From NCBI GenBank assembly GCA_029261775.1, contig JAJDAR010000073.1, positions 1-35,849 of the forward strand: a DNA stretch of 35,849 bases. Direction: 5' to 3'. Source of the stretch: Deltaproteobacteria bacterium. Its GTDB lineage: Bacteria; Myxococcota_A; UBA9160; UBA6930. The first letter of the stretch is position 1; each line of letters begins with the position of its first letter. The notes under the pieces are model-generated. The model saw only the letters and a list, made by a program, of their open reading frames with translations. It searched no databases and was not told where the DNA came from. This document shows, piece by piece, positions 2,924 to 19,558 of the stretch. The position numbers were made by a program, and so were the translations under genes.

Positions 2924-3081
2924 CGCCAACCCCCCGTAGCGTCTCGCGTCCCCGCATCGCAGGCCCTCCTGCGGAGGCGGTCCGCGAAGGGCCGGGACGG
3001 TCGGTGTCAGCTTCGTGACCCGCCTCCATCCGGTCGGCCCCTCCGGGGCTCGTCGGGATCGGGGCCCAGCCCGAGGATCCC

Positions 3082-4410
3082 GTGGGCAGCTTGGACGCAG
3101 GTTGGATCTCCCCCGTCGCCATCTACCTGGTGCCGCTGGGGCTGATGTTGCTGCTGTACTTCCAGCGCATGCGCCGGAGCGAGCAGAAGGCCATCCGGGC
3201 CCTGCGCCGCAGCCAGGACACGGGACGCGACGAGCCGGTCTCGATGCATCCGGTGATCAACGGCAACCGCTGCATGGGCTGTGCTGCCTGCGTCGAGGCC
3301 TGCCCCCAGGGCGACGTGCTCGGTGTGATCGGTGGGCAGGCCGACCTGGTGAATCCCAGCCACTGCATCGGACACGGCGCCTGCGCGCGCTCGTGTCCGA
3401 CCGATGCGATCCGGCTCGTGATCGGGAGCGAGCGTCGCGGCGTCAGCGTGCCGGTCCTGACGCCCGACTTCCAGACCAACGTGCCGGGGGTCTTCGTCGC
3501 CGGAGAGCTCGGCGGCATGGGCCTGATCCGCAACGCGGTCGAGCAGGGACGCCGCGCGATCGAATCGATCCGCAAACTTCCCGGGCAGGGAGAGGGAGAC
3601 CGGCTGGACGTCGTCATCATCGGCGCCGGGCCCGCCGGGTTCAGCGCCTCGCTGACCGCACTCCAGCACGAGATGCGAAGCGTGACCTTGGAGCAGGATC
3701 GCCTCGGCGGTTCGATCGCCCACCACCCTCGAGGCAAGATCATCGTCATGCACCCGGTCGACATCCCGCTCGTCGGGAAGGTGGACATGCGGGAGACGCC
3801 GAAGGAGGAGCTCCTCGAGTTCTGGGAGCGCGTGCGCCGCGAGACCCGGCTTCGGGTGCGCGAGAACGAGCCCGTCGAGGCCATCGCGCGCGCGGAGGGC
3901 GAGGGCTTCGTGGTCCGGACTGCACAGGGGGCCTACGAGACTCGTGCCGTGCTTCTCGCGGTCGGTCGAAGGGGCACGCCCCGCAAGCTGGGTGTGCCCG
4001 GAGAGGACCAAAGCAAGGTCGTCTACCGGCTGGCGGATCCGCGCCAGTACCAGGGCAAGCGCGTGCTCGTGGTCGGCGGCGGGGACAGCGCGCTCGAGGC
4101 GGCCACGGCCCTGGCCGCTGTGGACGGCGCGAGGGTGACCCTCTCCTATCGCGGTCCGAGCTTCCGCCGCGCCGGTCCGGGCACCTTCGAGCAGCTCGAA
4201 GAAGTGCAGGCGCGAGGAAGAGTGGAGGTCCTGATGAGCTCCACCGTCCAGGAGATCGGATCCGACAGCGTCGTGCTGCAGACCGAGGGCGGCCGACGCG
4301 ATCTCCCGAACGACTCGGTGATCGTCTGCTGCGGAGGTGTCATGCCCAACGACTTCCTGCGAAAGATCGGCGTGGAGATCGAGACACGCTACGGGACCCC
4401 GATCTCATGA
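3082..4410 (+). CDS. membrane-anchored ferredoxin-flavoprotein oxidoreductase (permuted TrxR-like fold)
   Basis: 442 residues from a GTG preceded by GAGG. A membrane segment (about 10-27) anchors the protein, with the basic side after it. A dicluster ferredoxin region follows: C64-C67-C70-C74 is a full 4Fe-4S motif. The second motif has C95, H98, C101 and C105, so His replaces one Cys. Residues about 127-160 carry the T-x-x-P-G-V-F-V-A-G-E and A-V-E-Q-G motifs that normally end a thioredoxin-reductase-like flavoprotein. Only after these come the FAD motif GAGPAG (about 181-186) and the NAD(P) motif GGGDSA (about 332-337). The chain stops shortly after the PNDFL segment, where the missing C-terminal piece would be expected. 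I see no CxxC redox pair. It probably moves electrons between NAD(P)H, FAD and Fe-S centres at the membrane; the substrate is unknown. Its stop overlaps the start of the ankyrin gene. Confidence 0.8.
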   Translation: MGSLDAGWISPVAIYLVPLGLMLLLYFQRMRRSEQKAIRALRRSQDTGRDEPVSMHPVINGNRCMGCAACVEACPQGDVLGVIGGQADLVNPSHCIGHGACARSCPTDAIRLVIGSERRGVSVPVLTPDFQTNVPGVFVAGELGGMGLIRNAVEQGRRAIESIRKLPGQGEGDRLDVVIIGAGPAGFSASLTALQHEMRSVTLEQDRLGGSIAHHPRGKIIVMHPVDIPLVGKVDMRETPKEELLEFWERVRRETRLRVRENEPVEAIARAEGEGFVVRTAQGAYETRAVLLAVGRRGTPRKLGVPGEDQSKVVYRLADPRQYQGKRVLVVGGGDSALEAATALAAVDGARVTLSYRGPSFRRAGPGTFEQLEEVQARGRVEVLMSSTVQEIGSDSVVLQTEGGRRDLPNDSVIVCCGGVMPNDFLRKIGVEIETRYGTPIS

Positions 4411-6377
4411 GCGGGCTCAGGGCGCTGTGTCTCGCGCTGGCGGTGTCGCTGCTGGCGAGCGGCGCGATCGCCCTCGACCCGCGCGACGAGCTCCACCTCG
4501 CGATCCGCACCCGCGACTTCGACCGCGCTGCGAGCCTGGCGAAGCAGCGTGCGAAGGCAGGTGACGTGGACGCGCAGTATCAGCTGGGTGTGCTGTATCG
4601 CTCCGGTCGCGGCCTCGAGCGCGACGACGAGAAGGCCTTCCGCTGGTTCCTCGCCGCCGCGAAGGCCGAGCATGTCAAGGCGTGCCACCAGGTGGGGCTG
4701 GCCTATCGCGACGGCACCGGCGTGGAGCGCGACCTCGACCAGGCCTACCTCTGGCTCGACGCCGCCGCGAAGGCCGGCGACCTGCGCGCTGCGCGACTCC
4801 TGGCAGGCAGTCGGGGGCGTGGGGAGCTCGCGCCGGCTCGGCTCGCCGCCGCAGACCAGTCCCCCGACGAACGGCTCTGGCAGGCGCTGGTGGCTCGGGA
4901 CCCCGGGGCTCTGCGCCTTGCGCTGCAGGCGGGAGCGGCGCCCGATCGTCTGGATCCCGAGCGCGGTCTTCCGTTGCTGACGGCAGCGGCCGCCGGTCCA
5001 GAGCTGGTTGCGACACTCCTCGAGGCCGGCGCGAACGTCTCGCTGGCGGGCCAGGACGAATCCACCGCGCTGCACGCCGCGACGCGGGTAGGGCAGACCG
5101 AGGTCGCCGTGCGGCTCATCGAGGCCGGGGCCTCGCTCTCGATCGTCGACGATCAGGGGGCGACGCCGCTCCACCTGGCGGCCCGCCACGGCCACGCGTC
5201 GCTGGCGCAGCGACTGACCGAGCTCGGTGCCGATCTGGCCGCTCGGGATCGCGGCGATCGAACGCCGCTCGAGCTGGCGCTGCGCAGCGGTCACTCCCAG
5301 CTGGCGCGGCAGCTGCGCCGCGCGGGCTCTCCTGCGGCCAGGACGGCCGATGACACGCGACGCTCGCCGGCCTGGATCGCCCGCCAGTCCGCGCCCGAGG
5401 AGGGCTGGACGCCGCTCATGGCCGCCGCCTGGCGCGGGGACGACGAGCTCGTCGCCGAGCTCCTGGCCGGCGGCGCGCACCCGGGCGAGGCCGGTCCCGA
5501 GGGACACACCGCCTTGACCCGCGCCGCCTGGGCCGGGGAGGCCTCCATCGTCCGGCGCCTGCTCGCGGCGGGATCCGACGTGGCTGCGACCGCGGGCCCG
5601 GGACGCCAGGCCCTGAGCTGGGCTGCCGGGGAAGGACACGCGGAGGCCCTTGCCGTGATGCTGTCGGCGGGGGCGGAGGTGGACGCCAGCGACGATCGAG
5701 GACGCACGGCGCTCAGCTGGGCTGCCGCAGGGGGGCACGCCGACGCCCTCGCGGCCCTGCTGGCCGTCGGAGCCAACGACTTGCACCAGGATGACGAGGG
5801 CCAGGCCCCGCTCCACCTGGCCCTTCGTGCGGGCAGCGGGGACACCGTCGCACGGCTCCTCGGGGCTGGCGTCGAGGTCGATGCCCAGGCGGTCTGTCGC
5901 GCGGCCGCCGAGCCCGAGGGTGACGTGTTCCGCGCACTGATGGCCCACCGCGGCCATCCGGGTCAGGTCTGCGACGGCAACCTGCCGCTCCTTGCCGTCG
6001 CCGCGGCTTCGGGGCGCGCCGATCGGGTCGCGACCCTGCTGAGCGCGGGAGCGGACGTGGGCGGCGCGAGCCCGGGCGCCGACACGGCCCTGATCCTGGC
6101 GGCGGGCCGCGGACACCTGGAGATCGTGCGACAGCTCGTTGCTGCAGGCGCCGAGCTCGATCACCGCGGCTTCCGTCGGCACACGGCCCTGATGCGAGCT
6201 GCCGAGTCCGGACACGACGAGCTGACCCGCTGGCTCGTCGAGCAGGGAGCCCGCGTGAACGTCCGCAATGTCGAGGGCGACACCGCGATCGATCTGGCGG
6301 GTCGGGCGGGCCATGAGGCGATCGGCGAGTTCCTCTCGCAGCCGCCGGCGAGCGCCTCCTGGACCGACGCCTTCTGA
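4407..6377 (+). CDS. secreted Sel1/ankyrin-repeat protein
   Basis: 656 residues. The ATG shares ATGA with the stop of the flavoprotein gene, so translation is probably coupled. The same frame is open far upstream, but that part overlaps the flavoprotein gene and is not coding. Residues 1-22 are a signal peptide (hydrophobic core ending A-I-A-L-D). About 45-135 hold two Sel1-like repeats (GVLYRSGRGLERD and GLAYRDGTGVERD). From about 155 to the end there are roughly twelve ankyrin repeats with T-A-L-x-x-A-A and G-A-x-V cores. One around 490-530 is degenerate, with extra cysteines. Such proteins bind partners rather than catalyse. The coupling suggests a periplasmic partner or protector of the flavoprotein; bacterial ankyrin proteins next to catalase or other redox enzymes have been described. 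The specific partner is inference. Confidence 0.85.
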   Translation: MSGLRALCLALAVSLLASGAIALDPRDELHLAIRTRDFDRAASLAKQRAKAGDVDAQYQLGVLYRSGRGLERDDEKAFRWFLAAAKAEHVKACHQVGLAYRDGTGVERDLDQAYLWLDAAAKAGDLRAARLLAGSRGRGELAPARLAAADQSPDERLWQALVARDPGALRLALQAGAAPDRLDPERGLPLLTAAAAGPELVATLLEAGANVSLAGQDESTALHAATRVGQTEVAVRLIEAGASLSIVDDQGATPLHLAARHGHASLAQRLTELGADLAARDRGDRTPLELALRSGHSQLARQLRRAGSPAARTADDTRRSPAWIARQSAPEEGWTPLMAAAWRGDDELVAELLAGGAHPGEAGPEGHTALTRAAWAGEASIVRRLLAAGSDVAATAGPGRQALSWAAGEGHAEALAVMLSAGAEVDASDDRGRTALSWAAAGGHADALAALLAVGANDLHQDDEGQAPLHLALRAGSGDTVARLLGAGVEVDAQAVCRAAAEPEGDVFRALMAHRGHPGQVCDGNLPLLAVAAASGRADRVATLLSAGADVGGASPGADTALILAAGRGHLEIVRQLVAAGAELDHRGFRRHTALMRAAESGHDELTRWLVEQGARVNVRNVEGDTAIDLAGRAGHEAIGEFLSQPPASASWTDAF

Positions 6378-15742: not shown

Positions 15743-15778
15743 CTCCATGTCCGGTGCGTCGCTCCCGACGGGAGCTAG
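15739..15778. terminator. hairpin spanning both convergent stop codons
   Basis: CTAGCTCC (15739-15746) and GGAGCTAG (15771-15778) are a perfect 8-bp inverted repeat. The TAG of the small plus-strand gene and the TAG of the minus-strand selenoprotein gene each lie in an arm. A bidirectional terminator is likely, though there is no T tract. Confidence 0.5.
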
Positions 15779-16116
15779 CCGAGCGCTTCCGCGTACACGT
15801 CCTCGTGGAAGCCCACGATCACGGTCTTGCCGGCGCGGATGCACGGGGCCCGGAGGTTGCCGGTGGGGCCGAGCATGGCGTCCACGCAGTCCTTCGGTGC
15901 CTTGCCGCCGGGCTTGAAGGTCTCGACCTTCTTGCCCTTCGCCACGATCACCTTGCTGCTCGCCTTCGCCAGGGCCGCCGCGTCCGCGCGGCCGAGCTTC
16001 CGGGAGGCGGGCACCTGCTCTCGGGCCTCGAGCCCATGGGCGTCCAGGAACTTGGACGCTCGTGTGCAGGACGTTCAACCCTTGCGGTGGTAGTACCAGT
16101 CGATCCTCTTGGCCAC
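15775..16116 (-). CDS. ArsC-family selenoprotein, UGA at 16075-16077 read as selenocysteine
   Basis: 113 residues if the in-frame UGA is Sec. Translation starts at the GTG at 16114-16116, 4 bases after GGGAGG. It gives a start with D-W-Y-Y-H-R-K-G, then U14-T-S-C17, then a continuous ArsC/Spx-like fold to the stop at 15775. The downstream part has K-V-I-V-A-K-G-K-K-V, L-G-P-T-G-N-L-R-A-P (the cis-Pro region of thioredoxin-fold ArsC proteins) and T-V-I-V-G-F. UxxC takes the place of the catalytic CxxC. Family knowledge: ArsC-like selenoproteins are known from sequence surveys. A hairpin fitting a bacterial SECIS follows the UGA. The role is probably thiol/selenol redox; arsenate reduction is not shown. 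A TAGCAT -10-like box lies 23 bases before the start. Ordinary gene calling would report only the 79-residue tail. Confidence 0.85.
16040..16059 (-). promoter_or_regulatory. SECIS-like hairpin of the ArsC-type selenoprotein
   Basis: On the minus strand GCGTCC (16059-16054) and GGACGC (16045-16040) form a perfect 6-bp stem with the 8-base loop AAGTTCCT. The stem begins 15 bases after the UGA, so the loop starts about 22 bases after it, inside the 16-37 base range known for bacterial SECIS elements. The loop contains the GU that SelB recognition usually needs. Confidence 0.65.
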
Positions 16117-16242
16117 GACGCCTCCCTTCGAGGGACCGGATGCTAGCGGGACCAGCGATCGGATCCAGCGAAGGCGGGCAGGACCCGCGAGGCAGGCGAT
16201 GCGGGGATGCCGTGGACACCGCGATTGCGCCACTCTCGGGCC

Positions 16243-19482: not shown

Positions 19483-19558
<76 letters not shown>

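Follow-up and report, generated by a model that had tools for sequence, protein, structure and literature searches.

The minus strand of positions 15775 to 16116 almost certainly encodes a genuine bacterial selenoprotein that belongs to the ArsC-related family NF041106, with an in-frame UGA that would be read as selenocysteine (Sec). The gene lies in a stretch of 35,849 nucleotides (the window) from a Deltaproteobacteria bacterium, the genome assembly of which amounts to 5.33 Mb in 578 contigs and is 93% complete. The protein is a new sequence member of a family that is already catalogued.

Gene and Reading Frame

The ArsC-like gene runs from a GTG start codon at 16116-16114 to a TAG stop codon at 15777-15775, coding for 113 amino acids with one in-frame TGA. 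The frame has the form V(M)AKRIDWYYHRKG-UGA-TSCTRASKFLDAHG...EALG-TAG, in such a way that the segment MAKRIDWYYHRKG is followed by the UGA, by TSC, and then by an uninterrupted frame up to the stop, as the first-pass annotation had described. The coordinates given in that annotation were right but the strand was left unstated, and the gene belongs to the minus strand; the plus-strand reading of 15775-16116 was rejected, as it yields no ArsC-like selenoprotein. The strong Shine-Dalgarno that had been claimed ahead of the GTG is present as AAGGGAGG at positions 16121-16128 of the minus strand, 4 nt upstream of the start codon, and the homologues mostly have a start codon at the position equivalent to GTG 16116. 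The UGA is codon 14 (16075-16077, minus strand), and codon 17 (16066-16068, minus strand) encodes a Cys presumed to be the resolving residue, both forming the UxxC motif (UTSC) that had been predicted. Elsewhere in the window, an open frame of 1120 amino acids, containing numerous ankyrin repeats as well as Sel1 repeats, occupies positions 3015-6377 of the plus strand.

Family Assignment and Fold

With the UGA read as Sec, the protein matched the NCBIfam model NF041106 at 114.1 bits over the full length of the profile (positions 1-107 of 107), the curated cut-off being 85 bits, and a search of the genome with this model gave 106 bits at the ArsC-like gene, with one in-frame TGA. No difference in kind was found with respect to this family (ArsC_rel_Se_1, "ArsC family (seleno)protein"), with which the protein shares the full-length match, the UxxC motif and the presence of Sec or Cys at the active-site position. 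The glutaredoxin-linked ArsC arsenate reductases (PF03960) share with it the fold and the Arg-x-Pro loop region, but they use a single catalytic Cys instead of UxxC, and the score against the Pfam model was 14.5 bits, below its gathering cut-off of 24.

Selenoproteins resembling ArsC were described in publications of 2006 and 2008 (PMC1794560, PMC2398784), an "Arsenate reductase-like protein" with UxxC is listed in a review (PMC9312934), and an entry of the same name and motif appears under accession NF041106 in PMC13188914. The marine-metagenome ArsC selenoproteins (PMC2398784) have Sec in an ArsC fold, as here; among them, Arsenate reductase 2 has UxxC like the present protein, whereas ArsC 1 has UxxS. 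The novelty implied by the first-pass annotation was not upheld, the family being already modelled by NCBI and listed in reviews; as NCBI models the family, its current annotation has a model able to call the gene.

The assignment to an ArsC-type fold, also made at first pass, was corroborated as ArsC/Spx-type by the NF041106 match, by a profile of 23 sequences that found Spx and ArsC-related proteins among the solved structures, and by a predicted structure (pLDDT 91.6) whose nearest solved structure is Spx, with a TM-score of about 0.55. An alternative is that Sec is inserted, yet the product is a Spx-like redox-sensing regulator that binds RNA polymerase, and not an enzyme. Spx proteins are the best solved relatives (E 1.4e-9), and Spx/MgsR proteins (TIGR01617; PDB 7f75, 1z3e, 3gfk) share with this protein the ArsC-type thioredoxin fold, a G-LR-P close to the C-terminus and the place of the redox pair, the CxxC of Spx being located where UxxC is found here. 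They differ in that Sec occupies the position at which Spx has Cys and in that the TM-score is only around 0.55. Against a regulator of this kind, which seems unlikely to us, the match to the NCBI Spx/MgsR model TIGR01617 reached 20.6 bits, far under the cut-off of 75.05.

Conservation of the UGA Codon

Fifty homologous loci were fetched from other genomes, with record titles naming Deltaproteobacteria, Myxococcota, Planctomycetota, Acidobacteriota, Poribacteria and others, and TGA was found at the same codon in all of them. In 379 genomes of the phylum there were 78 matches over the NF041106 cut-off, 77 of them with exactly one TGA; the lone exception (genome G365) is a natural Cys form, CETC, within KVIDWYYHRRSCETC. 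Homologues were expected at first pass to have Cys or Sec at this position, and what they have is TGA, or Cys in that one genome. Cys17 is found in nearly all the homologues and is replaced by Ser (UxxS) in L021 and L024 (Krumholzibacteriia), and the residues Y9, R11, Sec/Cys14, G83, G86 and L88-R-A-P91 are invariant. Judged by this comparison, the conservation of the frame and of the UGA is far beyond chance.

These data bear on the possibility that a Cys codon (TGC or TGT) was mutated or misread as TGA, in such a way that the locus would be a pseudogene or a sequencing error. A single base separates TGC from TGA, and metagenome-assembled contigs do contain errors, such as the frameshifted copy in the same-genus genome G003. 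Against this, the same TGA is present in 50 independent loci and in nearly every above-cut-off match of the phylum, and the conserved frame is intact on either side of it; with the TGA conserved in this manner, we regard the explanation as refuted and its probability as very small.

Two further observations were made among the related loci. The gene in the G003 genome (L106) is broken by its frameshift past the UGA region, through either assembly error or decay. Two divergent Myxococcota-like sequences (L102 and L104, from genomes G243 and G173), which read FYGRAUTGC..., scored around 61-63 bits against NF041106, below the cut-off; in them too, an in-frame TGA lies within a UxxC motif and is accompanied by a similar hairpin, and they may constitute a separate selenoprotein subfamily.

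Selenocysteine Machinery of the Genome

The first-pass annotation predicted a complete selenocysteine machinery, and the genome was searched for it. The genes selA (525 bits) and selD (276 bits), both without internal TGA, and selC, a tRNA-Sec with a UCA anticodon, were found whole, selB being represented by its start only; a second match over the cut-off of the tRNA-Sec model was a tRNA-Ser. When a profile HMM and the SelB protein of the same-genus genome G001 were used as queries, a whole selB was absent from the assembly and only other translation GTPases were retrieved, which counts against the selenoprotein reading. In G001, selB lies directly after serS. In the present genome, serS is located at the end of contig C163 (7,982 bases), and the final 41 bases of this contig read MSTSDRVPLILGT and align with the start of the G001 SelB, MPAEHQRPPLILGTAGHIDHGKTT, in such a way that the first 13 codons of selB are found straight after serS, where the contig ends. 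As this order is that of G001, and as SelB scores above the cut-off in four of four same-genus genomes, these data argue strongly that the missing remainder of selB is most likely due to an assembly break. The SelB search of the present genome (G000) also lacked an EF-Tu-like match as large and as high-scoring as those found in many relatives, and the assembly may be without tuf as well, a further sign of gaps.

That UGA is a general sense codon in this genome and does not specify Sec, as its position within an intact frame could suggest, is the least probable of the alternatives, to a degree that we consider negligible. It is refuted by the use of TGA as an ordinary stop (it is the terminal stop in 7 of 7 neighbouring genes checked); selA and selD are free of it internally, and the genome has the tRNA-Sec(UCA).

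Hairpin Downstream of the UGA

Under the preferred reading of the UGA as Sec, a SECIS element would be expected, and a SECIS-like hairpin, GCGUCCA-AGUUCC-UGGACGC, was found at positions 16040-16059 of the minus strand. Its conserved stem, GCGUCC(A)/(U)GGACGC, begins exactly 15 nt past the UGA and has 6-7 bp, in agreement with the first-pass annotation, and closes a loop AGUUCC. Shortly after the UGA there is thus a hairpin that has G-U in its loop, and alone it is not significant here: in this sequence by itself it was not beyond chance with respect to synonymous recoding (p 0.15), nor exceptional with respect to dinucleotide shuffles (z -1.15). No Rfam family was matched by the hairpin, the sole Rfam match of the window being a tRNA. 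A tRNA-Thr (CGT) lies at positions 19483-19558 of the minus strand.

Among the homologues, the same stem was found in a close group of 16 sequences, two of its pairs showing G-C/G-U and A-U/G-C changes. A second stem class was detected in 15 distant sequences, a 19-nt hairpin with a GUU loop at equal distance from the UGA, with compensatory changes at pair 3 (G-C, C-G, U-A), pair 5 (A-U, G-C) and pair 8 (G-C, A-U); the Planctomycete sequences show a different folding at this region. With synonymous recoding, 46 of 47 sequences were more stable than the mean, with a mean z of -1.5, these sequences being related and their z-values not independent. It is therefore credible that the hairpin acts as a SECIS, the structural evidence being supportive and not decisive, because this stretch is constrained by the protein sequence and the sequences are related.

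Discussion

We propose that the mRNA hairpin immediately 3' of the UGA would recruit SelB with Sec-tRNA(Sec), which, on comparative evidence, would insert selenocysteine at residue 14. The product would be a small protein with a thioredoxin fold of the ArsC/Spx type. Sec14 and Cys17 sit where the first helix of this fold begins, and in the LRAP loop both R89 and P91 are invariant; this arrangement suggests that Sec14 is the nucleophile and that the intermediate is most likely resolved by Cys17 through formation of a selenenylsulfide, which would then be recycled by a thiol reductant. The protein is most likely a cytosolic reductase of the thiol/disulfide or peroxide/metalloid type. The clustering of the neighbourhoods of 54 loci showed neighbours common only within small groups and no conserved operon partner hinting at a substrate, the clusters common to many loci consisting of the ArsC-like gene and of its shadow frames. 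A bolder proposal, to which we give a minor chance, is that Sec is all but obligatory in this family and serves a Sec-specific chemistry, the protein possibly being a Spx-related Sec-based redox sensor.

With this finding, a catalogued selenoprotein family gains a well-supported member, and existing knowledge is left unchanged. The gene illustrates how the start and the active site are lost when a sequence is read without regard to Sec, and the family to which it belongs shows a strong preference for Sec over Cys, in 77 of the 78 members of the phylum and in 50 of the 50 wider loci.
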